The notes under the pieces: model-generated
What the model was told of the DNA's origin: nothing
The model's database searches: none
Seen by the model: only the letters and a program-made list of their open reading frames with translations
Program-made: the position numbers and the translations under genes
Part shown: one piece after another, positions 22,975 to 63,695 of the stretch
Layout: each line of letters begins with the position of its first letter
How positions within the stretch are numbered: position 1 is the first letter of the stretch
NCBI RefSeq assembly: GCF_002804025.1
Contig: NZ_CP024969.1
Span: 1-64,000 of the forward strand
Reading direction: 5' to 3'
DNA length: 64,000 nt
Origin: Mesoplasma tabanidae
GTDB lineage: Bacteria > Bacillota_I > Bacilli_A > Mycoplasmatales > Mycoplasmataceae

Positions 22975-25095
22975 ATGAAAAAACTATTATTAACACTATC
23001 ATCTGTATTTATTATTGCTGGTGCTGCAGGTTCTGTTGTTTCTTGTGGAGTTAGCCCAGAGAAAGAAGTAATATTTGCTCTTATTGGAGGTTATTCAATG
23101 AGTGACACTGATTTAGAAAAACTTAATGCTTATAAAGAAATGGCTGATGAGTTTAATGAAGAACACAAAAACGAAGAAAATTTCGTTCCTATTAATGTTG
23201 TTTGAAGAGAGTCAAGTTATCTTAATAATGCTGTTTTAACAGGTGATAATCTACCAGACTTATATATTTCATATGTTGATGCTGCTTCTACTTACTTGGA
23301 GTCAACTGTGGCTGATCAAGTAAGAGACATGGAAAAATCAATGGGCGAAGATGGTTTTAAAAAATTTACTGATGATTTAATAACCCCAGCTTTTATTGAA
23401 GAAGGTAAGTATAAAGAAACTCAAGTTGTATTCCCTTTTGGTAAATCATTTGATATTTCAGTTATAAATGTAAATTTATTATTTCAATTTATGGCTCTTT
23501 TTGAAGAAGAAAGTGTAAAGTCAAAATTAACAAATCTTGAAGAAAAATATAAACAATACAATGCCAAAAGAAAAAATGTACTTGAAAATAATACTGAAAT
23601 GTCAGGAACAAGAATATTTAAAAATGGTTTAACAATTGTTCAAAATAATCAATATCTAAAACAAAATGATCTAGAAGTTCCTATTGATAGTACAACTTAC
23701 AATTATTTAGTAGACTTATTTTTAAAAGTTGATAATTCAATTGATGGGATTAAATCAATTTTTGCGTCAACTAAAAATGTTTTAGCATTAACAATCGCAA
23801 TGAATCAAATTATACAAAAAAATCTTTTAGATGTAACTGTCAAAATTGATAATAATAAGTATGTTAAACCAAATGAAAAATTTAATTTTGCTTTTGGTAT
23901 TGATTCACTTGATAATAAGTACTACATGGACTACGCTTCAACAAGTGAAGGTCATGAGATTATAGATATTCAAAATGACAAGGATTTTTGATATAACGCA
24001 ACTTATGAAAATAAAAAGGCAAATATCACATTGAATTCTGAATCTCAAAGTTTTAAGGATACATCAAAATACCTACAAGGTATGAAGAAAATTGCATTAA
24101 GTAATTTTGAAAAAGATAAATCTGTACCAATAAATTATTCAGAACAATGAAATGGTGTTTTTTCAACATCAAGATACGAACAAAATTCTCAATCTAAAAC
24201 ATATATAACACAAGACTTTACAAAAGGGACTATGTTTATGGGAAGTGCATCATCTGCAAATGATTTTTATTTTACAACCTCATGAACAAAAAATCTAGAT
24301 GTATACAATAATCAAAACTTACCGACACAAAAAGAAACAGTTACTTATACACCAGTTACAAGAGCCGATGTTATAACAACTTCTAAAACAAATGAATCAA
24401 ATCCGGAAAAAGCTGTTTTTATGTCACAAGGTAGAGGAATAGCTGGATTTAAATCTAATGGAAGCAACGCTTTGTATAAAGAAGAAAGTGTTAAAAATTT
24501 CTTGAATTACATTATGCAACCAGTACCAGCTGCTAGATTTGCGCTAAGAACAAGTTATATGCCAGCGACAAAATCCGGAATGCTTATTTATGAAAATTAT
24601 TTAAATGGTAATTATAATAATAATGAAGGAAATCCAAAAGATAAAAAAGCACTTATAAAAGTAGTACAAGAAATAGAAGCATCATATAATTCAAATAGTA
24701 TCACTGAGCACCAAGCTGAAGAATTAATACCAGAATATTTTGGGCAAATATTAACAAATAACAAGCCCGAATGAAAAGCAGGAATTAGTCCTGTAAATAC
24801 AGGTTTTATAAATGATTACTTAAATCCAAAAATTGGAAATGAGGTTCATCTTGAAGAAAACAAAGTTAGTCTTGTTTCATCAAAAGCGCACCCTGTAACA
24901 GATATAGTGAGAAGTGGAATAAAAAACTCAATATCAGGAACAAATGGAATTATGGATTTAGCAAAAAAACCTAATATGAGTTTTTATGATTTAATTAAGT
25001 CACCAAGCAATGCAACTGATTCTGCCTATTTAGCATATTGATTAGGTAGACAACAAGGCGATTTCTACAAAGAAATTAATTTAAAATATTCATAA
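22975..25095 (+). CDS. Solute-binding-like lipoprotein (paralog 1, no riboswitch)
   Basis: A 706-residue lipoprotein with signal MKKLLLTLSSVF and lipobox SVVSC. It resembles the extracellular solute-binding proteins of UgpB/MalE type: a periplasmic-binding start (KEVIFALIGGY), GDNLPDLYISYVDAAS near 90, and VVFPFGKSFDISVINVNLL near 145. It is clearly paralogous to the lipoprotein at 29255, including the MSQGRGIAGFKS and LNYIMQP segments. Its size matches, from memory, the MG185-type lipoproteins of mycoplasmas. Unlike its paralog it has only a short leader with TTTATAAT around 22931-22938 and no riboswitch. The IS30 insertion lies in its terminator. The ligand is unknown. Confidence 0.75.
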
Positions 25096-25237: not shown

Positions 25238-26203
25238 ATGAATAATTATAAACAAATATCTTTAAAAGAAAGAACATTAATTGAATATCTATTAAATGTT
25301 CAAAATAAATCAGTTTCTTTCATAGCTAAAGAACTAAATAGAAATAGATCAACGATTTACAGAGAAATCAAAAGAAATAAAGCAGCTGTAATTTATAAAG
25401 CTAAAGATGCGCAATTTACTAGAGGCATTAATAACACCTTATCTCATCAAAATGAAATAAATAAATATAAGGAATTCTTAAGATTTCTTTATGCAAATTT
25501 TAATCCAAAAAGCTTTAGTATTGATGTTTGCGTTTTTAAGGCCAAAGAACTTGGAATCAAAACCCCAACAACTCAAACTGTTTACAATTGAATTAAAAAT
25601 AAACAAATAAAAATAAAATCAAAAGACTTGCTTAGACCTAGGTTTTGATGAAGAAAGTCTAGTAAATATAAGAAATATCTATGAGAAATTTCAAAAATGA
25701 ACTCTATTCCAATTACTTATAGACCTAAAAATATTAATAAAAGAAAAGAAGTAGGTCATTTTGAAATAGATTTAGTTGTGGGTGCAGGTAACACTTCAAA
25801 AGCAATAATTACACTTGTCGAAAGAGTTACCCGAAAGGGTTTTGCAATTAAACTAGAAAATAAAACTATGAAACATACAACTGAAAAATTAAAAGAATTA
25901 ATTGGAAAAGAAAATTTAAATATTAAATCTATCACTAAAGATAACGGTATGGAATTTAATCTTTTACATGAAGTCACACAAGAATTAAGCGTGCCACTTT
26001 ATACATGTAATACGTATGCTTCTTGTGAAAAAGGCACTAATGAAAACTTTAATGGATTAATCAGAAGATATTTACCTAAGAAAACTAATTTTACAAATTT
26101 AACAGATGATAATATAATTGAAATATTAAATGAAATAAATAAAATGCCTCGTAAAATTCTGAACTACAAATCAGCTCAGGAATTTTATGAGACATTCGGT
26201 TAG
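25238..26203 (+). CDS. IS30-family transposase (copy 1)
   Basis: The 321-residue transposase has an N-terminal helix-turn-helix (IAKELNRNRSTIYREIKRNK, about 29-48) and the DDE catalytic residues in FEIDLVVG, TKDNGMEF and GTNENFNG, as in the IS30 family. Several Trp codons, including two adjacent ones in RFWWRKSS, are TGA, so the gene is intact. AAAGGAG precedes the ATG. Relative to copies 2 and 3 it has Gly for Asp, Arg for Lys, Ala for Ser and Thr for Asn at single sites. Confidence 0.93.
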
Positions 26204-26400: not shown

Positions 26401-26466
26401 AACTTATACAGGGTAGCATAATGGGCTACTGACCCCGCCTTCAAACCAATTTGAAGACTATAGGAC
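26401..26466 (+). ncRNA. 2'-dG-type purine riboswitch 1
   Basis: The aptamer has the shared core GGGTAGCATAATGGGCTACT, junction TGACCC, a P3 stem CTTCAAA / TTTGAAG, and J3/1 GACTATAGG. The C in GAC is the specificity base that pairs with a guanine. This core, with short loops, matches the type reported from Mesoplasma florum as selective for 2'-deoxyguanosine. P1 (CTTATA with TATAGG) contains one G-U pair. It lies 59 bases upstream of the lipoprotein at 26525. No GC-rich terminator follows; a 9-base downstream segment can pair with P3 (see findings). Confidence 0.88.
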
Positions 26467-26524
26467 TTTTATAAAACTTTTTTATTTGGTTGAACAAAAT
26501 AATAAAACATAAGAAAGGAATAAT

Positions 26525-27049
26525 ATGAAAAAAATATTAACTATATTAGCTGCTGTTGGATTAACAGCTACAACAGGAACAACTTTAGTAAGTTGTGGAT
26601 CAGGGCAAAAAAATAATGATCAAGATTATACAAATGTTTCTGGAGTTACAGCTTGAAACAATAACTTAAAACAAGTACAAGGATTTGTTATTGATCAAAT
26701 TGGAACAACTTTTGAGAGTTCAAGTGATATGAATGAAAAAATTAAAACAATTAATTTTTCAAAAGTAGCAAGAAAAAACATTTTGTTTGCAGACAACTTA
26801 GCTTTAGGAGAAAAACAAAAGGATATCGTTGATGAAGCAATTAAAAAAGCACCAAATCCAAATGAATTATTTAATTATTCAATTTATGTAGTAGCAGTTA
26901 GAAGCTCTACAAAACGCACTGGCACAAATAATCAAGACACATTAAAAGTAGATTATTTAGAAGTTAAAGATGGGGAATGAACTTACGCAACTTTTGATAA
27001 TGTAAAAAGTTTTAAATACGAAAATGTTTTTGTATCATATAAAAAATAA
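26525..27049 (+). CDS. Riboswitch-controlled lipoprotein A, unknown function
   Basis: A 174-residue lipoprotein with signal MKKILTILAAVGL and lipobox TLVSC, followed by a low-complexity GSGQKNNDQD spacer. I do not recognise the mature domain: it looks soluble and mixed alpha/beta, with no transmembrane helix. It shares its signal style with lipoprotein B at 27243 but little beyond that. It is preceded by a 2'-dG-type riboswitch and AAAGGAA. The riboswitch context suggests a role in deoxynucleoside or DNA salvage; that is inference from regulation only. Confidence 0.7.
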
Positions 27050-27061
27050 TATATTTTATTG

Positions 27062-27067
27062 TATAAT
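27062..27067 (+). promoter_or_regulatory. -10 box for riboswitch 2
   Basis: A consensus TATAAT lies 24 bases before the aptamer and 13 bases after the previous stop codon. The -35 would fall in the end of lipoprotein A and is not a good match. Confidence 0.6.
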
Positions 27068-27090
27068 TTCATTAACAACTTAATATGAAA

Positions 27091-27155
27091 AACTTATACA
27101 GGGTAGCATAATGGGCTACTGACCCGCCTCAAGACCAATCTTGAGACTATAAGTG
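27091..27155 (+). ncRNA. 2'-dG-type purine riboswitch 2
   Basis: Same core as riboswitch 1 with P3 CTCAAG / CTTGAG, J3/1 GACTATAAG and a clean P1 (ACTTATA / TATAAGT). The specificity base is C. It is followed immediately by a strong terminator hairpin, indicating transcriptional control of lipoprotein B. Confidence 0.9.
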
Positions 27156-27156
27156 T

Positions 27157-27191
27157 AAAGGTTTTTTTGGTTACCAAAAAAACCTTTTTTA
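27157..27191 (+). terminator. Riboswitch 2 expression-platform terminator
   Basis: A 13-bp stem from AAAGGTTTTTTTGG to CAAAAAAACCTTT with loop TTAC, followed by T residues. It begins two bases after P1. Confidence 0.88.
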
Positions 27192-27242
27192 TTAAAATAT
27201 CTAAAGTTTTTCTTTAGGTTGTGTTCAAAATTAGGGGAAAAT

Positions 27243-28040
27243 ATGAAAAAATTATTAGCAGTATTAGGAGCAATTGGTCTTACAACAATTGGAGCTTCAA
27301 CAGTAGTTTCTTGTGGAAATGGTCAAAAAAATAAAGATACGCAAGAAACTGTTTTAAAATCAGTTCAAGAAAAAATAGTTGAATCAATAAAATTGGATTC
27401 AAATAAAATATATGAAAATCAAAATGATATTTATTTTGCTATGTCTGATTTAAAAAATCCTGAAACCTCAGAATTATTAAAGTTAGAAGGAGTTAAAGGG
27501 ATTTCAGCTTCTTCAAAAGATTTACCAACAGGCAAACCAGATAATGAATATGATATTTGAATTAGACTATTAGGTACACAATCAAATCAAACAGATTTTA
27601 TTCAAGAAAATCATAATTTATGAGCAGTTCAAATAAGCTATTTTGGTGCTAATAAATCAGAAGATGGAACATTGTCATGAAATACAAAATATACTCAAAA
27701 TTATGATTTAAAATTCAAAGCAGAAAAGCAAAATTTATTAGTTACAAATTCAAATAAGGAAGAAATTACTGAAGCAACTTTAAATAACAGAGAATTGACT
27801 CTATATTTGGAAAACAAAAATTCTAGAGAGGCTATAGATTCTAAAATAGATATTGAAGGATTAAGTCAAGATTTATTTGAAGAACCCGTAGTTAAAATAT
27901 CAACATATCCAGGTTTAACAGGAACAATTACATTTAAACTAAAACAAGAATCGATTTTACAAGCAGATCAAAAATTAACAATTAAGGCAGCTTCATTTAA
28001 GTCATTTGAATTCACAATAAAAACTGAAAATTTAAATTAG
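27243..28040 (+). CDS. Riboswitch-controlled lipoprotein B, unknown function
   Basis: A 265-residue lipoprotein with signal MKKLLAVLGAIGL and lipobox TVVSC. The mature part starts GNGQKNKDTQ and has no domain I can name; the second half is beta-strand-like (TLYLENKNSR, GTITFKLKQES). The ATG at 27243 has AGGGG nine bases upstream; an upstream TTG would put residues before the signal peptide. Three Trp codons are TGA. Expression is governed by riboswitch 2 and its terminator. A decayed IS30-like element sits in its own terminator. Confidence 0.72.
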
Positions 28041-28062: not shown

Positions 28063-28976
28063 TATCAATTGTAATTGGAAGTGCAACACTTGTGAGAAAA
28101 TATTCTCATGAGTCACTTCCTTTTTTGCATAAAAAAAGTGAATACCTCAATAACCGTTCAAAGCACAAAGGAGTATTCACATGAATAATTATTAACATCT
28201 AAATAAAAAAGATAGATATTTGATTGAATATTTATACTCCAATTTTAGTAAAAAATATTCAAGTATTGATATTTGTGTTTTTAAAGCGAAGCAACTTGGT
28301 ATAAACACGCCAACAACAAAAACTGTTTACAATTGAATCAATATAAATCAGTTAAAGATTAAACCTAAACATTTGTTGAGACCTAGATTATGATGAGAAA
28401 AATCAAGTAAATACAATGAACTCTTTAGAAAAATGAGCTAACTTAAATTCAATACCTATTTCGTTTAGACCTAAATGAATAAACAATCGTTCAGAGTTTG
28501 ATCACTATGAAATTAATCTAATTGTTGGTGAAAAAAACAGTGGTTATATTTTAACTTTAGTTGAAAGATTAACTAGAAAAGCTTTTGCGATTAAATTAGA
28601 AAATAGAACAATGAAGCATACAAATGAAAAATTTTTAAAACTTATTAATAAAGAAAATATTATGCTAAAAAGTATCGCAAAAGATAATGGTATGGAATTC
28701 AATTTATTACATGAAATTACTAATAAAATTAATGTCAAATTATATACGTTTAATACTTATGCTTCTTGTGAACGTGGAACAAATGAAAATTTCAATGGGC
28801 TAATGAGAAGAGAATATCCAAAATCAACAAACTTTTCTAATTTAAACGATGATAAGATTAACTCATTACTATCAAAAATAAATAAAATGCCTTGAATAAC
28901 TGCTTAGCTATAAAACTGCTAATCAGTTATTCAAGGCATTCGGTTAGAAGTGTTGCACTTCCATTTACAATTTATA
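28063..28976 (+). mobile_element. Decayed IS30-like element (914 bp)
   Basis: The ends (TATCAATTGTAATTGGAAGTGC and GCACTTCCATTTACAATTTATA) are close to those of the intact 1108-bp elements, but the interior has lost about 190 bp and the coding region differs throughout. It is an older or separate lineage rather than a damaged copy of the same element. Confidence 0.85.
28181..28953 (+). pseudogene. Remnant IS30-family transposase
   Basis: Begins ATGAATAATTATTAA, so the first frame stops after four codons, and the N-terminal helix-turn-helix is deleted. Later blocks remain recognisable: the NTPTTKTVYNW-like segment, the catalytic KDNGMEFNLLHE and the GTNENFNGLMRRE motif. Frames change near 28430, and the first catalytic Asp block reads HYEINLIVG with Asn for Asp. 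The C-terminus is rearranged, with an inverted repeat TTGAATAACTG / CAGTTATTCAA near 28893-28946. It cannot encode an active enzyme. Confidence 0.85.
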
Positions 28977-29112: not shown

Positions 29113-29177
29113 AACTTATACAGGGTAGCATAATGGGCTACTGACCCGCCTTAAGACCTATCTTAAGACTATAAGAT
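29113..29177 (+). ncRNA. 2'-dG-type purine riboswitch 3
   Basis: Same core as riboswitches 1 and 2, with P3 CTTAAG / CTTAAG, L3 ACCTAT and J3/1 GACTATAAG; specificity base C. It heads the leader of the lipoprotein-ABC transporter-MBL operon. The 77 bases to the start codon show no terminator, and the ribosome site TTAGGGGGATT could be controlled directly: L3 CCTA is complementary to TAGG, but this is only four bases. Confidence 0.88.
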
Positions 29178-29254
29178 AAAAATATTTTATTTAATTAAGT
29201 TGTTTCTTTATTAAGTAATAATTTGTATAAAAAAATTAGGGGGATTATTTTTAA

Positions 29255-31378
29255 ATGAAAAAATTATTATTAACATTATCATCTGTAACACTAGTTAGTA
29301 CAGCTGGAATGAGTGTTGTATCATGTGGAGTGAAACCAGAAAAATCTGTAATATTTATGCTTCCAGGTGAAGCGGTTGGTACAGCTTCTATTGACAAAAA
29401 AGATGCATATATGGATATGGCTGAAGAATTTAACGCTATTCATAAAGACGAAACTGGATTTGTTCCAGTTGAAGTAAGATGAGCAAAGTCAGGAACAATT
29501 AACGACGCTATTTTAACAGGGGATAACTTACCTGACTTATATGTAAGTTATGCTGATGCAGTTTCACTGTACGCAAATACAAAAGTTGGAGATCAAGTTA
29601 GAGATATGGAATCTTCAATAGGTGAAGCTGGTTACAGTAAATTAACAGGTGATATAGTTGATGATTCTTTCTTAAAAGAAGGGCAATACAAAATGGATGG
29701 AAGCGAGAAAGCTACTCAAATAGTTTTACCTTTCGGAAAATCAGTTGAATTATCAGTTATTAACGTAAACTTTTTCTTAGAATTTGTTTCAAAAATTAAA
29801 ACGGGTGCTTTAACTGAAGGAAATGGATCAGATGAAATTAGTGCATTCGATGGTTCTATTGTTGCAACTAAAGCAAGAACAGCTTTTGAGGAATTTAATA
29901 ATAGCGAAAGAAAAAATTTAACTGGTGAAGGTAAATTGTCAGGAACTAAAGTTTATAAAGATGATTTAGTAATTAATGAAGCAAACTTAGGAAACAATCA
30001 AAATGCTAAGGAATCACTAGCTAGATTGGTTAATTTATTCAATGAATTAGGAACTGCAAACGCACAAAATATTGATGAAAAAATAAGAGAAATATTCTCA
30101 AAAAATGAAACAATCATTGATATGGCAACAGTTTATAATGCAGTTAAATCAAACTTTGATTTAAGATATGCAGATAAAAAAGGAGATCTTCATAATGTTA
30201 ATAAATCAGCAGATAGTCATTTCTCATTTGGTATTGATTCATTAGCAAATAAATATTTTATGGATCAAGCAGCTAGAAGTGGAATAGCATCAATTGATAT
30301 AACAAATAAAGATAATGGTTTTTTCTACAATGCAACTTATGATAAAGCAACTAGAGTTGCAAACGTTGAATTCGATCAAACTTCTGATTCTTTCCAAGAT
30401 ACTTCAAAATTTTTACAAGATTTTAAAGACATTGCATTATCAAATGATAATGCAAGTCAACAATTAACTTATAAAGAACAATGAAATGGAACATTAAATT
30501 TAAGCAGACAAGAAGGAACAACTAAATATTATACAAGTGATAGTTTCTTAGTTGGGTCATCATTTATGTCAAGTGGATCAACAGCAGGAGCTTATAATTT
30601 TGTTAAAGATAGATCAGTATCTAAAGATGAAACATACCAACCAGTTACTAATGCTGATGTATTAACAGCATCAACTTCGACAGCTCAAGGAAAAAAATCT
30701 GTTTTCATGTCACAAGGTCCAGGAATTGCAGGTTTTAAATCAACAGGTTCAAATGCAGCTGATAAAGAAAAAACAGTTACAGCATTCTTAAACTACATGA
30801 TGCAACCAAAACAAGCAGCTGATTTTGCTTTAAAATCAAATTACATGCCACCAACAAAATCAGGAATGTTAATTTACCAAAATTATGTAAATGGTGACTT
30901 TAATAATACAAAAGGAAAAGTTGGGGATGCAAGTAACCAAATATTAAGTGGAGTAGTTAAAAAACTTAATGAAAAAAACGAAACAAATAATGGAACTGCA
31001 TTTACTGTTGAAAACACATTTACACCAGTTCGTTCAACTTCAAAAAATAGATTAAGTTCACAAGCAGCACCTAATGCGGTTAATTCAGGATTTATTGAAA
31101 ATTACTTAAACTTAGGAACAAACGTTCAACCAAGTAAAACAATTTTAGTTACATCTACACCAGCACCAATTGGTTCAACAGTTCGCGATGGAATAGCAAC
31201 AGCTATGACAGGAACAGGAACAATAACAGATTTAAACAAAGCAAAAGAAGTTAAATTCACAGACTTACTGAATAAAGCAAACTATGTTTACAACTTAAAT
31301 ACATATGTAATGAAAAAAAATAACACAGACATGTTTAGTAAAATTAACATGACTTTCAAAAAAACACAAAACAAATAG
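29255..31378 (+). CDS. Solute-binding-like lipoprotein of the riboswitch-controlled ABC importer (paralog 2)
   Basis: A 707-residue lipoprotein with signal MKKLLLTLSSVTL and lipobox SVVSC. It is a full-length paralog of the protein at 22975 and shows the same binding-protein features (GDNLPDLYVSYADAVS, LPFGKSVELSVINVN, FMSQGPGIAGFKS, LNYMMQP). As the first gene after riboswitch 3, followed 33 bases later by an ATPase and two permeases, it is the probable substrate receptor of an ABC importer. Size and operon position recall MG185 next to the MG187-189 transporter. A nucleoside, nucleotide or oligonucleotide ligand is inferred from context, not from the sequence. Confidence 0.8.
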
Positions 31379-31411
31379 AGAAAAAAATTAAAATAGAAAG
31401 TTTTTAAAAAC

Positions 31412-33799
31412 ATGAGTATTAAATTAAAAAATATAACAATTGACTATGGAAATTTCTTGGCGGTAAATGACCTAAGTGTAAATATTAATAAAGGGGAACT
31501 AGTTTCCCTTTTAGGACCTTCTGGTTGTGGAAAAACAACAGCATTGAATGCGATAGCAGGTTTAATTAACACAACATCAGGGCAAATTCTATTTGACGGT
31601 GTTGATGTGACACATAAAACACCTCAACAAAGAAATATAGGATTAGTTTTTCAAAGTTATGCGCTTTATTCACATATGAGTGTTTTTAAAAATATTGCAT
31701 ACCCTTTATATCACTCAAAAGATTTTAAAAAAGAATTAGCAAGAGATAATTTTAAATACAAAAACAGATTGAATGATTTAAAACAAACTAAAGCATTTGA
31801 GTTAGTGATTAAACAACAAAATGATTTTTTAAATGACTTAAAATCATTTTTAAAAGAAACTAATTATAAATTTAAATTACTTGAAACAGAGTTTTTAAAA
31901 AATCATAAAAATTCAATAGTTGAGTATACAGATCAATTGTTTGCTGATTTTGAAAATGCGGAAGTGTTAAAAAACCATTTAGTTAGTTATTTATATGACA
32001 AATTAAAAATTAAATTTAATGAAATTAAAGCTAGATTAGAATCAGTAATTTTAAGAAATTATAAAGCGTTGTTAGTTCAAAAATTAGATGTTCGCTTTGC
32101 TGGTACAATTGGGTACTATGCATGATTAAATGAAAAAAATGTTAAGGATAACCAAAAACACTTAGTTGAATTAATTAAAACAAGCAAAACTTCTAAAAAG
32201 CAAATTAGAAAAGAACAAAAAAAAGTCAGCTCAGAATTAGATATTTTTAATGGTTCATCAAGCCAAAATGGTTATGAAACATATAATCAAACTAAAACGG
32301 CTATAACAAATGATTTTATTGACCTACAAGTTTCAGAGCTTGAAAGAGAAATCGACGTTTATTTTGCAGAAGTTTTAATTAAAACTAAAACACCAATTAT
32401 TGAAAATAGTAAAATTGAAGCAGCAGTGATTTTAATAAGTAAAAAAATTGAAACTTTCAGAGTCGCATATTTAAACAAACATGCAAAATTAAATGAAAAG
32501 TTTGTTAAAAAAGTTTTAAAGAAACTTCCAAGTGAAATTAATATTCAAAATGATTTAACAAAATACTTTATGAATATTTCAAAAATGGAATTTAACAATA
32601 TTGAGAGAAAATTAAATGAATTAGTTTTCATTAGCATGCAAAATTTTGTTAATTCAGCGGAACAAAGTGAATTCACACAATTAACAAATTATTACTCAGT
32701 TAATATGAATGAACACTTAAATAATTCTGAATCAAGTGAACAACTTTTAAAAATTAACAAAGAAATTGAAAAAATCGTTTCACTACAAGAAGGTAAAAAT
32801 GCTGACGGAGTTGATATTTTAAATATTCAAAATGCCGATTTTGCAAACTTTATGAATGAAAGAGAAGCTTTAACTGAAAGTTTATTAATAGTATATGCAG
32901 AAAAAACTGAAAGTTTTATTTCTGAAACATTTGTTAAATTGCCTTTATTGGTTGCAACAGAATTAGAAAAAAATTCAGTTAAAATTGATACTAAAGAAAT
33001 TGAACAAGAAATTAGAAAAAATATTTATTCTAAAAAGAGAAAAATTAGAACATTGGTTTTAGAAGCGGCTAAACAAGTTGAAATTGAGTCTCAATTAAAT
33101 AAAAAACCAAGTGAATTATCTGGTGGACAACAACAAAGGGTAGCTATTGCTAGAGCTGTAGTTAAAAAACCAAGTATTTTATTAATGGACGAACCTTTAT
33201 CTAACTTAGATGCAAAATTACGTTTAACAACTAGAGAATGAATTAAGAGATTCCAGCAAAAAGTTGGTATTACAACTGTATTTGTTACTCATGATCAAGA
33301 AGAAGCAATGAGTATGTCAGATTCAATCTTTGTTATGAATAAAGGTGTTTTACAACAAAGTGGGACACCACTAGAAATTTATAATAAACCTAAAAATAAA
33401 TTTGTTGCAAACTTTATTGGTACGCCAAACATAAACTTCATTGATGTTAAAGTTAAAAAATCAACATTTGAATTGCCATCAGGTGATAAATTAACTATTA
33501 AAGGTGAAAAAATAGAAAAAGAACAGTGAACATTAGGTATCAGACCTGAAAGAATCAGTATTTCAGGTACAAAAGGAAAAATATTCATTGGTGAAGGCGA
33601 AGTTTCATTAGTTGAACAATTAGGAAAACAAAACCACATTAAGGTTCGTTTAGAAAATGAATTAGAAATCACTTTAATTTTAGAACCACATGAATGAAAT
33701 AATTTAAAAGATTCATCAACATTAAAGCTATACGCAAGAAAAGAAGATTTATACTTATTTGATGCAGAAACAAACTTAGTAGAGGTAAAATATGCGTAG
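31412..33799 (+). CDS. UgpC/MalK-type ABC ATPase with giant internal insertion
   Basis: A 795-residue importer ATPase. Walker [10 protein letters not shown] is at 35-43 and the Q-loop [13 protein letters not shown] near 77-89, but the signature LSGGQQQR comes at about 569 instead of about 135. The roughly 430-residue insert (about 105-555) is Lys/Glu-rich, helical and coiled-coil-like, without a known domain. Then follow Walker [17 protein letters not shown]-loop [15 protein letters not shown] and the OB-fold regulatory domain typical of MalK. Smaller inserts at this site exist in mycoplasma UgpC-like ATPases such as MG187, as I recall. The stop overlaps the next gene by eight bases. Confidence 0.9.
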
Positions 33800-34781
33800 A
33801 AATAAGAAAGATGAAGGCTTTGTCTTAATTGATGACAGAGTTATAAATTCTAAGGGTAAAAAGACAAAGCCCAAAAACATGGAAAAGGGTAGATTTGATC
33901 TTATAAACCAATTGATTTGAGTTTTACCAGGTCTATTTTTTGTATGTATATTCTCATATTTCTCAATATTTATTGTTTTTAAATATGGGTTAAGTGCAAA
34001 TGGGGCAAATGGAGTTTTTATTTTAAGTATTAAAAATATTGGTAACTTATTTACTGAACCAACTCATGAATTCCCAATAGCGTTAAGAAATACATTGATT
34101 TATGTTTTAGTATCTGTGCCAATTTCTTTATTAATCGCACTTTGAACAGCTAAAGCTTTAAGTAATGTTTTAAGTAAGAGAGCATTTGCTTTCTTCCAAT
34201 CAGCATTTTTCTTACCATATGTAACATCAGCTTTAGCTGTTGCTATGGCATTCTCAATATTATTTTCAACAAGTAATACATCTCTTTTAACTCAATTACT
34301 AACTAAATTAGGATTATCAAGAGTTGACTGAAAGGAACCTAAAAATGCAATGATTATGTTAATTATTTATGGGGTTTGAAAAATGCTTCCATTTAAAATT
34401 ATTATGTTTACAGCAGCATTTTTAAGAGTTGATAAACGCTTGTACCAAGCCGCATCAATTGATGGTGTTCCAAAATGACAACAATTTTGAAAAATATCTG
34501 TTCCACAAATTATGCCAGTTATCATTTATATGATTACAACAGGAATTATTGGTTCATTTAAATTTATGCCATTTGGATTATTTGCAAACTATGAAGAAGC
34601 TGTTAAATCACAAGCACAAACAGCAGTATTCTTTATATTCTCAAGAATAAACTCTGGATCAGGAAGTTTACCATCATACAGTACTGGTGGTGCCGCTTCT
34701 ATAGTATTGATGGTTATTATTTTAGTAATGACATTAGCAAATAGACAATTAAGTAAATTCTTAAATAAAAAATATAGATAG
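33792..34781 (+). CDS. ABC importer permease, MalF/UgpA type
   Basis: A 329-residue permease with about six membrane helices and the cytoplasmic EAA loop YQAASIDGVPKWQQFWKISV near 221-240, which contacts the ATPase. It starts with ATG overlapping the ATPase stop, with AGAGGT five bases upstream, showing translational coupling. Many Trp codons are TGA. It forms the transmembrane pore together with the next gene. Confidence 0.9.
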
Positions 34782-34789
34782 GAGTCAGC

Positions 34790-36106
34790 ATGGAAAAAAG
34801 AACAAGTGAATGAAGTAAAAAAAATAGAACTGAAGAGTGAAACAGAACTAATTCTTTTAAGAGGATTTCAGTTAAAGAAAAACCCTTAATTCAATCTGAA
34901 CCTATTATTGAAAGTACTGTAGTAAAAACAAATGTTGCTGTAATTTCAGATACTGAAATTCAAACAGCAGAAATTAAATTAACAAAAAAAGAAAAATATG
35001 AAAAAGATCTAGTAAAACAGGAAACTGAAATTTCAAGAAGAGAATCTGAAATTGTTATTCAGTCTAATTTCTTTAAAAGATCTTGATTAAAAATTTGTCT
35101 TTCTTGATTTATGTTTTGAAATAAAAAACAATTTAAGTTTAAACATGCTTTTTACATTAGAACAGTAAATAGAAGAAAAGATAAAACAATTAAAATGGCA
35201 GGTGATGTTTGATATAGACAAATAGGATCAAATATTTCTAACTATACTGTATTAATTATTATGCTTATTGTTATGATTTTCCCTTTTTATTGAATGTTAA
35301 TAACATCATTTAAGCCATACTCAGAAGTTGATACTGGTGTAATGGAATCTCTTTGACCTAAGCATTGAACTTTACAAGCATATAAAGACATGTTCTCTTA
35401 TGTAAACAGTTCAGGTGCCAAAGATTCAATTCCATTCGAAAGATTTTTCTTTAACTCACTATTTATTGCATTGATTTCTACATTAGTGCAATTAACTGTT
35501 TCAGTTATTGGTGGTTTTGCTATTTATAACTGAAGAACAAAATTTAACTCGCTATTTATGATAATTATGTTCTCAATAATGATGGTTCCTGGAGAAGCCA
35601 TGTTATTAGGTAGATACTGAATATCAGTTCAAATGCAATGAAGAGATACTTTATTTGCATTAATTGTTCCATTTATTGGTAATGTATTCACTATATATCT
35701 TATGAGTAATGCTTTCTATGGACTAAATAGAGATTTAAAAAGAGCAGCTAAAGTAGATGGATTGTCAAGTTTCCAATACTTCATGAAAATTGCTTTACCT
35801 GCTGTGAGTGCAACAATATTAACATCATTCATTATTTCATTTATCGAATCATGAAACTCAGTTTTATGACCAATCACAGTTATCGATAATCAAACAGGTC
35901 AATGAAGAACAATTCCTATGTTGCTTTATTCACTAATGAATGTTAGTGGTATGACATCTGAAGAATTCCCAATCGCAGACCCAATTAACGTAAAAATGGC
36001 AGCTTCAATTCTAGCAATTTTACCAATGATTGTTGTGTTTATTGTATTCAATAAATGAATTATTAATGGTCTAACAAAAAGAAGTGTTGGAGGCACAAAA
36101 GGATAA
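34790..36106 (+). CDS. ABC importer permease, MalG/UgpE type, with N-terminal extension
   Basis: A 438-residue permease. The first roughly 145 residues are charged and probably cytoplasmic, longer than usual for MalG (about 280 residues total). The membrane part starts near YTVLIIMLIVMIFPFYWML and contains the EAA motif KRAAKVDGLSSFQYFMKIAL. AGGAG precedes the ATG. The stop overlaps the start of the next gene as TAATG, so the MBL lipoprotein is translationally coupled to the transporter. Confidence 0.88.
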
Positions 36107-37215
36107 TGAAGAAAAAAATAAATTTAGTATTTTTAAGTCTTATATTAGCTCTAGTTGGGTTTTTATCAATTATTACAGTTTCTTGTGCGTCAAAAATTAA
36201 AGAGATAACAGGAAACGTATCATTTTATGTTCTATCTATAGGTAGTGGTAACTTTACATTTTTAGAAAAAGACGGCCATGCGGTTGTTATGGATTGCGGA
36301 ACTGGTTTAAATAGCGGAGGAGATTCATTAGAAACTGAAACTGATGCATTAAACACAGGCTATTGAGGCAATTATGCAAATAAAACTGATGCTGATAATA
36401 TAATAAATTTTATGAAAAATACAGCAAATGTTAAAGTTATTGATGCTATATTTATTTCTCATAAACATACTGATCATTATAATACTTTAAAATATCTAGT
36501 TGAGTCATTTGAGGTAGGAACGATTGTTGCTCCTACTGATAGCAAAGGATTGGAAACTGCTGTAAAACAATGAAAACCATCAGGTAATACGATTGTTGAT
36601 ACTATTTTTTCAAAAACTTATGATTTTTTAGGTGGAACATTTGAAAATTTAACAGCTTATTCTTCAAAAAAAGTTGTTAAAAGTTTATATACAAATACAG
36701 ACCCAAATGCTGTAAGTATGGTTTTACGATTCAAAGTAAATGGTGAAGTATTCATGCTTCCAGGTGATATGGAAGATAATACAGCAGTAATTAGAGATTC
36801 AAAATTTAGAAAAGCGGCAGCTTCTCAAAAAGTAGATGTGTTTTTGTTACCACATCATGGATCACAAAATGGTGCAACTGATTTAATTCCATTAATTGGG
36901 AATAAAGAAAAATCGCCTAAACATGTAATCATTTCTGGAACTGATAATTTAAATGGATTTGAACCTTGGGCAGCAAAACGTAATGCTATTACTAATGCTC
37001 AAGGACCTATTGGAATGTTATTAAACACATATTCAAAAGATAAAAGAGAGTATATTCATATTACGGGAGCAGTTAATTATAATGTTCTTAATGAATTTGG
37101 CGATCATGTTGATAAAGAAAATACTGAATCAACATTTGAATATAAATTTTCTGAAGGTATATGAAATTTTGTTGTTCATGAAGAAAATATTGCAAATGGC
37201 TTTAGAGTAAAATAA
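36106..37215 (+). CDS. ComEC-like metallo-beta-lactamase-fold lipoprotein
   Basis: A 369-residue protein with a signal peptide ending ITVSCAS (lipid Cys about 28) and one MBL domain. Metal ligands are visible: H119-x-H121-x-D123-H124 (HKHTDHYN), D221 in LPGDME, and LPHHGS at H250-H251. The early VMDCGTG and the late HHGSQNGA pattern match the nuclease-like MBL domain at the C-terminus of the DNA-uptake protein ComEC. It is lipid-anchored outside the cell and translationally coupled to the ABC importer. I infer a surface nuclease or phosphodiesterase feeding the importer; activity is not proven by sequence. Confidence 0.8.
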
Positions 37216-37231
37216 AATAATAAATTAAATA

Positions 37232-37295
37232 AACTTATACAGGGTAGCATAATGGGCTACTGACCTGCATTGGGACCTATTTCAAGATTGTAAGA
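37232..37295 (+). ncRNA. Variant 2'-dG-type purine riboswitch 4 with U at the specificity site
   Basis: It retains the core GGGTAGCATAATGGGCTACT and TGACC but differs in J3/1: GATTGTAAG instead of GACTATAAG. The base that pairs with the ligand's Watson-Crick face is therefore U, as in adenine riboswitches. P3 (TTGGG / TTCAA) is weakened by G-U pairs and an end mismatch; P1 still forms with one G-U. It begins 17 bases after the MBL stop with no terminator or clear promoter between, so it lies in that operon's 3' end. A terminator follows eight bases later. Confidence 0.75.
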
Positions 37296-37303
37296 AAATT
37301 ATC

Positions 37304-37334
37304 AAAGGATTCATTCATAGTAATGAATCCTTTT
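37304..37334 (+). terminator. Terminator after riboswitch 4
   Basis: A perfect 12-bp stem AAAGGATTCATT / AATGAATCCTTT with loop CATAGT and a short T-run. It may be the expression platform of riboswitch 4 or the end of the transporter operon. Confidence 0.82.
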
Positions 37335-40309: not shown

Positions 40310-40326
40310 TTATATATGTAATTAAC

Positions 40327-40395
40327 AGTATTTGTATAAACCAATATAATGGATTGGTGTCTCTACGACTAAACCTATTTAGTCTCTATAAGTTA
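40327..40395 (+). ncRNA. Guanine-type purine riboswitch upstream of hpt
   Basis: The aptamer shows P1 (ATTTGTA / TATAAGT), P2 (ACCAAT / ATTGGT), the conserved junction GTCTCTAC, P3 (GACTAAA / TTTAGTC) and J3/1 TCTATAAG with C at the specificity site, predicting guanine or hypoxanthine. It has the standard purine-riboswitch junction, unlike the four aptamers in the lipoprotein region. It controls hpt and a purine permease. Flanking 11-base arms at 40318-40328 and 40430-40440 are perfectly complementary and could compete with P1. Confidence 0.88.
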
Positions 40396-40470
40396 CTGTT
40401 TAAACTTATTTGGATCTTAAATCCCAATTCTGTTAATTACACCTAGGTAAATTTATCGAAGGGGTTTATA

Positions 40471-42492: not shown

Positions 42493-43600
42493 TACGAATT
42501 AAAATTGGAACTGCAACACTTATGAGAAAATAATCTCATAGGCATTGCAGTTTTTTTGATACAAAAAAGCAACCCCTTGACCGACTAAAGCCCAAAGGAG
42601 TTACCATGAATAATTATAAACAAATATCTTTAAAAGAAAGAACATTAATTGAATATCTATTAAATGTTCAAAATAAATCAGTTTCTTTCATAGCTAAAGA
42701 ACTAAATAGAAATAGATCAACGATTTACAGAGAAATCAAAAGAAATAAAGCAGCTGTAATTTATAAAGCTAAAGATGCGCAATTTACTAGAGACATTAAT
42801 AACACCTTATCTCATCAAAATGAAATAAATAAATATAAGGAATTCTTAAGATTTCTTTATGCAAATTTTAATCCAAAAAGCTTTAGTATTGATGTTTGCG
42901 TTTTTAAGGCCAAAGAACTTGGAATCAAAACCCCAACAACTCAAACTGTTTACAATTGAATTAAAAATAAACAAATAAAAATAAAATCAAAAGACTTGCT
43001 TAGACCTAGGTTTTGATGAAAAAAGTCTAGTAAATATAAGAAATATCTATGAGAAATTTCAAAAATGAACTCTATTCCAATTACTTATAGACCTAAAAAT
43101 ATTAATAAAAGAAAAGAAGTAGGTCATTTTGAAATAGATTTAGTTGTGGGTTCAGGTAACACTTCAAAAGCAATAATTACACTTGTCGAAAGAGTTACCC
43201 GAAAGGGTTTTGCAATTAAACTAGAAAATAAAACTATGAAACATACAAATGAAAAATTAAAAGAATTAATTGGAAAAGAAAATTTAAATATTAAATCTAT
43301 CACTAAAGATAACGGTATGGAATTTAATCTTTTACATGAAGTCACACAAGAATTAAGCGTGCCACTTTATACATGTAATACGTATGCTTCTTGTGAAAAA
43401 GGCACTAATGAAAACTTTAATGGATTAATCAGAAGATATTTACCTAAGAAAACTAATTTTACAAATTTAACAGATGATAATATAATTGAAATATTAAATG
43501 AAATAAATAAAATGCCTCGTAAAATTCTGAACTACAAATCAGCTCAGGAATTTTATGAGACATTCGGTTAGAAGTGTTGCACTTCCAATTTTAATTTATA
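42493..43600 (+). mobile_element. IS30-family (IS1630-like) insertion sequence, copy 2
   Basis: A 1108-bp element with the same ends as copy 1 (TACGAATTAAAATTGGAA and TTCCAATTTTAATTTATA) and the same nested left-end terminator at about 42509-42557. Its transposase appears identical to that of copy 3 at 62588, indicating recent transposition. Confidence 0.93.
42606..43571 (+). CDS. IS30-family transposase (copy 2)
   Basis: A 321-residue DDE transposase with HTH RNRSTIYREI and catalytic blocks EIDLVVGSG, TKDNGMEF, GTNENFNG. Trp codons in NWIKN, RFWWKKSS and LWEISK are TGA; the gene is intact. It appears identical in protein to copy 3 and differs from copy 1 at four residues. Confidence 0.93.
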
Positions 43601-62587: not shown

Positions 62588-63695
62588 TATAAATTAAAAT
62601 TGGAAGTGCAACACTTCTAACCGAATGTCTCATAAAATTCCTGAGCTGATTTGTAGTTCAGAATTTTACGAGGCATTTTATTTATTTCATTTAATATTTC
62701 AATTATATTATCATCTGTTAAATTTGTAAAATTAGTTTTCTTAGGTAAATATCTTCTGATTAATCCATTAAAGTTTTCATTAGTGCCTTTTTCACAAGAA
62801 GCATACGTATTACATGTATAAAGTGGCACGCTTAATTCTTGTGTGACTTCATGTAAAAGATTAAATTCCATACCGTTATCTTTAGTGATAGATTTAATAT
62901 TTAAATTTTCTTTTCCAATTAATTCTTTTAATTTTTCATTTGTATGTTTCATAGTTTTATTTTCTAGTTTAATTGCAAAACCCTTTCGGGTAACTCTTTC
63001 GACAAGTGTAATTATTGCTTTTGAAGTGTTACCTGAACCCACAACTAAATCTATTTCAAAATGACCTACTTCTTTTCTTTTATTAATATTTTTAGGTCTA
63101 TAAGTAATTGGAATAGAGTTCATTTTTGAAATTTCTCATAGATATTTCTTATATTTACTAGACTTTTTTCATCAAAACCTAGGTCTAAGCAAGTCTTTTG
63201 ATTTTATTTTTATTTGTTTATTTTTAATTCAATTGTAAACAGTTTGAGTTGTTGGGGTTTTGATTCCAAGTTCTTTGGCCTTAAAAACGCAAACATCAAT
63301 ACTAAAGCTTTTTGGATTAAAATTTGCATAAAGAAATCTTAAGAATTCCTTATATTTATTTATTTCATTTTGATGAGATAAGGTGTTATTAATGTCTCTA
63401 GTAAATTGCGCATCTTTAGCTTTATAAATTACAGCTGCTTTATTTCTTTTGATTTCTCTGTAAATCGTTGATCTATTTCTATTTAGTTCTTTAGCTATGA
63501 AAGAAACTGATTTATTTTGAACATTTAATAGATATTCAATTAATGTTCTTTCTTTTAAAGATATTTGTTTATAATTATTCATGGTAACTCCTTTGGGCTT
63601 TAGTCGGTCAAGGGGTTGCTTTTTTGTATCAAAAAAACTGCAATGCCTATGAGATTATTTTCTCATAAGTGTTGCAGTTCCAATTTTAATTCGTA
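62588..63695 (-). mobile_element. IS30-family (IS1630-like) insertion sequence, copy 3
   Basis: A 1108-bp element in reverse orientation with the same ends as copies 1 and 2. It carries an intact transposase and the same nested left-end terminator (about 63631-63679 on the minus strand). It seems identical to copy 2. Confidence 0.93.
62617..63582 (-). CDS. IS30-family transposase (copy 3)
   Basis: A 321-residue DDE transposase, same motifs as copy 2 (EIDLVVGSG, TKDNGMEF, GTNENFNG) and apparently identical to it in protein sequence. All internal stops are TGA Trp codons. It is the third intact copy in 64 kb. Confidence 0.93.

Follow-up and report, generated by a model that had tools for sequence, protein, structure and literature searches.

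A 2'-dG-I riboswitch precedes a Mesoplasma tabanidae operon for an ABC importer and an MBL-fold lipoprotein, with a probable role in feeding on extracellular nucleic acid

The window, a stretch of 64,000 nucleotides from the wall-less bacterium Mesoplasma tabanidae, holds five tightly packed genes behind a 2'-dG-I riboswitch aptamer. With open reading frames called under code 4, these genes encode a solute-binding lipoprotein (SBP), an ATPase, permease A, permease B and a lipoprotein with a metallo-beta-lactamase (MBL) fold, in the following arrangement:

29114..29176, + strand: 2'-dG-I riboswitch aptamer of the operon (RF01510, 90.1 bits, E 1.3e-18; at the same place in relatives)
29177..29254, + strand: leader from the aptamer to the SBP gene, in which neither an expression platform nor a GC-rich hairpin plus U run is recognisable
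29255..31378, + strand: SBP (SBP2), solute-binding lipoprotein of 707 aa, distantly related to the P68/MslA lipoproteins and to an ABC protein that binds dinucleotides
31412..33799, + strand: UgpC/MalK-type ATPase of 795 aa (PF00005, TOBE_2, OB_MalK)
33792..34781, + strand: permease A, UgpA-like (PF00528)
34790..36106, + strand: permease B, UgpE-like (PF00528)
36106..37215, + strand: lipid-anchored MBL-fold hydrolase of 369 aa, HxHxDH...D...HHGS, ComEC/CbpE-like (PF00753)
37233..37295, + strand: second 2'-dG-I-like aptamer, just 3' of the MBL gene (RF01510, 71.0 bits)
37304..37333, + strand: intrinsic-terminator-like hairpin 3' of the MBL gene, the first on this strand past the operon start

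The SBP and ATPase genes lie 33 nt apart, the ATPase gene overlaps that of permease A by 8 nt, a gap of 8 nt separates the two permease genes, and the permease B gene overlaps the MBL gene by 1 nt. A hairpin search found no terminator on the + strand in the operon interior. An earlier sequence-only reading had placed a binding lipoprotein, a UgpC-like ATPase with a large insert, two permeases and an MBL lipoprotein in one operon, with the last three genes overlapping or nearly so; all of these components were found, and the junctions agree with that description.

The operon aptamer matched the RF01510 covariance model over its full length (positions 1-63 of 63), with a score of 90.1 bits against a gathering score of 51. 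The class assigned earlier, a 2'-dG-type riboswitch, was thus correct, while the start had been set one base away from its true position at 29114. Selectivity for 2'-dG is predicted from membership of this family; in the second aptamer, the J3/1 ligand-pairing position is changed from C to U. No terminator-like hairpin was found in the leader of the window, and its folding was no better than that of shuffled sequences (z -0.67), so we assert no mechanism for this expression platform. Terminator-like hairpins were present in the operon leader of two relatives (G007, G032). A segment 5' of the aptamer, ACUUAAUAAA, could pair with the downstream UUUAUUAAGU, and this sequence is kept in three close relatives.

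The nrdF riboswitch of M. florum binds 2'-dG selectively and is turned off by it (PMC12268651), which, together with the terminators in some relatives' leaders, suggests that the operon is also shut off by 2'-dG; the window's aptamer would then act by repression. Both the aptamer and the operon also occur in M. florum L1 (G004), which has a genome of 793,224 bp (PMC7745072). The characterised M. florum member of the family controls ribonucleotide reductase, whereas the operon aptamer described here precedes genes for an importer and for a putative nuclease of the cell surface. Genes of deoxynucleotide metabolism make up most of the remaining 2'-dG-I regulon, which holds nrdF, guaA and a BMP-type nucleoside lipoprotein. 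The proposal of 2'-dG control gains support from the association of aptamer and operon, which is conserved across several genera.

The lipobox cysteine of the SBP (C24) was invariant in 20 homologues. Profile comparison related the SBP family to the lipoproteins of mycoplasma operons (98.5% probability, E 2e-15), and the P68 model matched 13 of the 20 SBP members (best 2.9e-16) and all eight mycoplasma operon lipoproteins; with the window's copy alone this model did not reach E 0.1. By sequence profile, the best solved relative was a dinucleotide-binding ABC protein (E 1e-7, versus 0.013 for UgpB). Among the structural matches UgpB was first by E-value, and sugar-type binding-protein folds were also observed. 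MslA binds DNA, single- as well as double-stranded, and a model of oligonucleotide processing has been published (PMC4045577). What the operon imports may be oligonucleotides and not nucleosides. The ATPase contains an insert of ~490 residues that separates the Q-loop (residue 79) from the ABC signature (residue 568), at the same site as in the ATPases of the mycoplasma operons. Homologues of permease A were found by profile search in 155 of the 317 genomes of the order.

These components relate the locus to the mycoplasma MslA/P81-SNase-ABC operon (M. bovis MBOVPG45_0311-0307; M. genitalium MG185-MG189; PMC4045577), which shares the order of lipoprotein, nuclease where present, insert-bearing ATPase and two permeases, and whose SBP, ATPase and permeases are homologous to those of the window. 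The kinship with MG185-MG189 that had been proposed earlier is borne out by homology and gene order. An NrnA-type DHH gene comes next in several of the mycoplasma operons, M. genitalium included. In a genome of 580,076 bp, which we take to be M. genitalium with its operon as MG185-191, the order is a lipoprotein (701 aa), SNase (250), ATPase (585), proteins of 329 and 334 aa, DHH (361) and a protein of 1444 aa. The window differs in having no SNase, an MBL lipoprotein at the 3' end and a 2'-dG-I riboswitch in front. Its operon represents, on the Mesoplasma/Spiroplasma side, the mycoplasma MslA-nuclease-ABC operon, the MBL having taken the place of the SNase.

SNase (PF00565) was absent from all 55 same-family genomes searched (the window's own and 54 others), in which a ComEC-like MBL stood at the 3' end of 12 operons, in agreement with the earlier suggestion that an unrelated fold had replaced it; in other families SNase was observed near permease A at 38 of 43 loci and the MBL at none. 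Across relatives, genes for known or putative nucleases accompany the importer, and their type changes. Many same-family relatives also hold an NrnA-like DHH phosphodiesterase gene inside the operon, with both DHH and DHHA1 domains; the NrnA model NF053633 (cut-off 350) gave 286-289 bits for the same-family genes and 505 for the M. genitalium-type gene. The NrnA-like gene of the window's own genome is encoded outside the operon, and this genome has two DHH genes, one adjoining a thymidine kinase gene, as well as a deoxynucleoside kinase. In one same-family operon a PD-(D/E)XK-like protein narrowly missed its cut-off (21.7 bits against 22). Open reading frames 3' of permease B in three operons where DHH comes first (G018, G027, G032) were checked as alternative nucleases and had no Pfam match. 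A 2'-dG or purine aptamer was found upstream of 12 of 12 operons with the MBL and 2 of 16 without it (Fisher p 3e-6, without phylogenetic correction), and no 2'-dG-I riboswitch was found in 23 searched genomes of other families.

The lipobox cysteine of the MBL lipoprotein is C27, and its metal-ligand residues, HxHxDH (119-124), D221 and HH (250-251), were invariant in 15 homologues, with slight variation in HHGS. It shares the HxHxDH and HHGS motifs, the fold and an extracellular position with the C-terminal MBL domain of ComEC, a metal-dependent nuclease (PMC8579336), from which it differs as a free-standing lipoprotein. The profile searches called for by the sequence-only reading gave a match to PF00753 and no Competence (ComEC channel) domain in Pfam, and the ComEC_Rec2 model TIGR00361 scored 42.3 bits, far under its cut-off of 190. 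Searches of the PDB, whether with the sequence profile or with the fold, placed pneumococcal CbpE/Pce first, its profile E of 1.2e-15 (profile positions 76-298) being slightly ahead of ComEC at 8e-14. Pfam detected no choline-binding repeats. The low TIGR00361 score and an equally good relative in CbpE/Pce mean that the label 'ComEC-like' needs a caveat. Since ComEC and a phosphorylcholine esterase are both among the nearest solved relatives of the protein, its role as a surface phosphodiesterase/nuclease is a prediction.

The chief alternative to nuclease activity is a phosphocholine-esterase-like one. The MBL would then act as a phosphorylcholine esterase of the Pce/CbpE type, and the importer, being Ugp-like, would take up glycerol-3-phosphate or glycerophosphocholine, a scavenging role that fits the CbpE match, the Ugp-like ATPase and permeases, and the first place of UgpB among SBP structures. 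We consider it unlikely. An aptamer for 2'-dG or purine precedes every MBL operon, the regulon comprises nrdF, guaA and a nucleoside lipoprotein, NrnA and SNase are neighbours of the importer, and the SBP sequence profile ranks UgpB five orders of magnitude behind the dinucleotide-binding protein. The target-normalised TM of the MBL alignment was 0.72 for the ComEC domain (9ic4) and 0.59 for that of CbpE. Still less probable is an importer of sugars or oligosaccharides with incidental nuclease and riboswitch neighbours; sugar-type folds among the SBP matches and the annotation of the homologous M. bovis permease as 'oligosaccharide ABC transporter' (PMC4045577) speak for it, but nucleases of unrelated folds recur beside the same importer, the MslA homologue binds DNA (PMC4045577) and sugar metabolism is not what the regulon holds. 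Competence-like DNA uptake for transformation, which a surface-exposed ComEC-like domain with a lipoprotein signal might evoke, is set aside as highly improbable because the ComEC channel domain is absent, and the ABC importer, the oligonucleotide-degrading enzyme added in relatives and control by a nucleotide-pool signal also argue against it.

From the genes, their homology and conserved order, the aptamer and the regulon, we conclude that the operon probably serves 2'-deoxyguanosine-controlled feeding on extracellular nucleic acid. Nucleic-acid substrates, as proposed earlier, are supported by the nuclease neighbours, the dinucleotide-binding relative of the SBP and the deoxynucleotide regulon. 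On the surface of the cell, the MBL lipoprotein would cut DNA, perhaps RNA too; the 707-aa SBP would capture the oligonucleotides, which the UgpC-type ATPase and two permeases would import. Inside the cell an NrnA-type DHH phosphodiesterase would cut them to mononucleotides for deoxynucleoside salvage, and rising 2'-dG would bind the leader aptamer and lower expression. With modest confidence we favour the fuller account, in which an MBL nuclease replaces SNase, oligonucleotides enter intact for NrnA-type cleavage, and 2'-dG feedback on feeding on extracellular DNA parallels the Bacteroidetes 2'-dG-II/ComEC association. Counted against feeding on nucleic acid are the slight lead of CbpE over ComEC, UgpB as top SBP structure, the lack of a recognisable terminator in the window's leader and an NrnA gene outside the operon, as well as two genomes of the same genus (G003, G006) that keep the importer with neither MBL nor riboswitch, an in-frame stop in the MBL copy behind the permeases of G005, and a broken operon in G060.

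Mollicutes have to scavenge the precursors of their nucleic acids, and the passage of DNA fragments across their membrane has so far been a model in which the transport step is not demonstrated. The operon links an importer to nucleases of unrelated folds that can stand in for one another, to an NrnA-type enzyme inside the cell and to a sensor for one particular nucleoside. Its genus includes M. florum, a harmless laboratory organism, so both the cargo of MslA-type transporters and the reason for 2'-dG sensing become directly testable. The wall-less Hujiaoplasma nucleasis has a nucleic-acid-degradation locus with an extracellular nuclease, NrnA and ABC transporters, whose expression was examined both in the presence of added DNA and RNA and in their absence (PMC10470597); the likeness seen is one of gene content, and an extracellular ribonuclease occurs there in place of the MBL. 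In the account of Weinberg 2017 given in PMC8872408, Bacteroidetes 2'-dG-II riboswitches adjoin ComEC and endonuclease I genes, which similarly ties 2'-dG sensing to genes acting on DNA, although the riboswitch class and phylum are different and the genes named there differ from the window's ABC importer.

Further 2'-dG-I aptamers and related genes were observed upstream of the operon:

22975..25095, + strand: SBP1, 43% identical to the SBP of the operon and a paralogue of it
26402..26465, + strand: 2'-dG-I aptamer of LP1 (RF01510)
26525-27049, + strand: LP1, small lipoprotein
27092..27154, + strand: 2'-dG-I aptamer of LP2 (RF01510), upstream of this lipoprotein gene
27157-27187, + strand: terminator-like hairpin after the LP2 aptamer
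27243..28040, + strand: LP2, small lipoprotein with no function assigned

No aptamer was found in the region upstream of SBP1. In one relative (G077), an LP2 homologue with its own aptamer adjoins the operon.

The operon in the window is a real, conserved system, in which five same-strand genes lie behind a 2'-dG-I aptamer with spacings of 33, -8, 8 and -1 nt; a terminator scan of the window found no + strand terminator inside it.

Position 29114, + strand: 2'-dG-I aptamer
Operon gene 1, + strand: SBP, a binding lipoprotein of 707 aa
Operon gene 2, + strand: UgpC-like ATPase of 795 aa
Operon genes 3 and 4, + strand: permease A and permease B, both BPD_transp_1
Operon gene 5, + strand: MBL, an MBL-fold lipoprotein of 369 aa

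The window comprises the first 64 kb of a source genome of 846,907 bp, read with genetic code 4. We observed ~490 residues inserted between the Q-loop and signature of the ATPase, and seven MBL residues (H119, H121, D123, H124, D221, H250, H251) were invariant in 15 homologues. The aptamer, gene packing, lack of an inner terminator, ATPase insert and invariant residues thus uphold the sequence-only reading of a riboswitch-led operon with a huge ATPase insert. Three IS30-family transposases of 321 aa with a common start were also observed (25238-26203, 42606-43571 and 62617-63582; two +, one -), and a shorter 163-aa relative (28416-28907) sits between the small lipoprotein gene LP2 and the operon's riboswitch.

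Permease A orthologues were found by profile search in 155 of 317 genomes of the order. A staphylococcal-type nuclease (SNase) gene lay within three genes of permease A in 38 of the 43 loci fetched from other mycoplasma families, while MBL was near it in none of the 43. The usual order in these loci was lipoprotein, SNase, ATPase, permease, permease, followed in several by a DHH gene. One of these genomes (a single 580,076-bp contig) encoded a lipoprotein of 701 aa, SNase of 250, ATPase of 585, proteins of 329 and 334, DHH protein of 361 and a protein of 1444 aa, which we take to be M. genitalium MG185-MG191, so the comparison with that operon in the sequence-only reading holds. MG186 has 250 aa (PMC12115388); further ORFs separate MG185 from MG186 in this locus. 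Comparison of family alignments matched the SBP family to the mycoplasma operon lipoproteins (98.5% probability, E 2e-15, 348 columns), and the P68-lipoprotein model matched 13 of 20 SBP family members and 8 of 8 mycoplasma operon lipoproteins. The kinship proposed earlier is borne out: the window importer is the importer of the mycoplasma nuclease operon (MslA-nuclease-ABC), which works alike and shares it by descent, but whose defining SNase is absent from the window operon.

No SNase was found in the source genome or the 54 other same-family genomes searched (0/55), and the MBL gene was directly 3' of permease B in 12 same-family operons. In these 12 operons SNase is replaced by the unrelated MBL, as had been proposed. 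One MBL copy has an in-frame stop (G005), and in G060 the SBP and MBL genes are both broken. In two genomes of the same genus (G003, G006) the importer is present, with neither MBL nor an aptamer at the operon. A DHH/DHHA1 gene of NrnA type was observed within the operon in five genomes (G015, G060, G072, G077, G178) and as its first gene in six (G014, G018, G021, G025, G027, G032). The first gene of a riboswitch-led copy in G019 encodes a protein that matches PD-(D/E)XK weakly, with 21.7 bits for a cut-off of 22. That one importer recurs with unrelated folds that cleave nucleic acid argues most strongly for a nucleic-acid cargo, and an NrnA gene within the operon suggests cellular uptake of pieces larger than mononucleotides. 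In the source genome a matching DHH gene lies away from the operon, at 618 kb; a second, NrnA-like DHH gene adjoins a thymidine kinase gene in the same orientation (G000:C1 786 kb, L242 380-1938), and a deoxynucleoside kinase is also encoded.

The main rival to a nuclease is that MBL is a phosphocholine esterase, since its predicted structure (pLDDT 85) matched pneumococcal Pce/CbpE (1.7e-13); the model also matched the Moorella ComEC domain 9ic4 (1.4e-12), with a higher target-normalised TM-score of 0.72. ComEC's own C-terminal domain has metal-dependent nuclease activity (PMC8579336). The MBL protein had no channel domain by Pfam and did not reach the ComEC equivalog cut-off, so the proposed ComEC likeness is retained for the MBL domain, but the protein is not a ComEC. 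The SBP AlphaFold2 model was confident (pLDDT 87). By sequence profile its best solved relatives were chains 7c0f-7c1b (E 1e-7), most labelled in the fold search as a dinucleotide-binding ABC transporter protein with bound dinucleotide, with UgpB next (0.013). By fold UgpB (7.6e-10) and the dinucleotide-binding protein (2.2e-9) were near equal, so fold alone gives no decision.

Rfam placed four 2'-dG-I aptamers in the window (26402, 27092, 29114 and 37233, all + strand), with scores of 71-91.5 bits where the gathering score is 51; none was found in 23 genomes outside the family. A match lay upstream of the operon in G000, G001, G002, G004 (M. florum L1), G007, G015, G060 and G077. Those in G032 and G178 fell below the gathering score (46 and 48 bits), the nearest in G005 stood about 930 nt ahead of the SBP gene, and the aptamer in G072 matched the purine model instead. 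An aptamer preceded 12 of 12 MBL-bearing operons versus 2 of 16 without MBL (G019, G025; Fisher p 3e-6, from hand-tallied counts and ignoring shared ancestry), and the pairing of aptamer with operon is conserved. At nrdF the riboswitch turns expression off through termination (PMC12268651). As expected of an OFF switch, terminator-like hairpins were directly 3' of the aptamer in the operon leaders of G007 and G032 and in the window's LP2 leader, but none followed it in the operon leaders of the window, G002 or G004; the proposed shut-off by 2'-dG is thus suggested by leaders of some relatives, and not by the window's own operon leader. In Bacteroidetes, 2'-dG-II riboswitches precede ComEC and endonuclease I (Weinberg 2017, as cited in PMC8872408); there, 2'-dG sensing is independently coupled to DNA-acting genes. 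MBL replacement and 2'-dG control are what is new relative to the MslA-nuclease-ABC operon; our literature searches found no paper describing the combination of importer, MBL and 2'-dG, but Kim 2007 may already list the aptamer's downstream M. florum genes.

2'-dG-I aptamers also preceded nrdF, guaA, a BMP/PnrA-type nucleoside lipoprotein, a PhnD-like binding protein and small lipoproteins, as identified by eye from sequence rather than by family search. The aptamer before the PhnD-like (phosphonate-type importer) binding lipoprotein was strong in G003, G004 and G025 (L119, L122, L008). Two small lipoprotein genes in the window (26402-28040) each have their own 2'-dG-I aptamer, and an LP2 homologue with aptamer adjoins the operon in G077 (L104 3497-4438). 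Just 3' of the MBL stop, the 2'-dG-I-like aptamer at 37233-37295 (+) has C to U at the ligand-pairing J3/1 base (AGATTGTAA), where other compared aptamers retain AC; G002 has an aptamer at the equivalent position with the ordinary C. In guanine riboswitches, J3/1 C to U turns specificity to adenine, so the 37233 aptamer, which stands before the DUF1904-dus-lysS genes, may be a switch of 2'-deoxyadenosine type or else a decayed one. A riboswitch of either purine or 2'-dG-I class at 40312-40408 (+; 46.7 bits as a purine riboswitch, and 48.2 bits with the 2dG-I model) precedes a hypoxanthine phosphoribosyltransferase-like gene.
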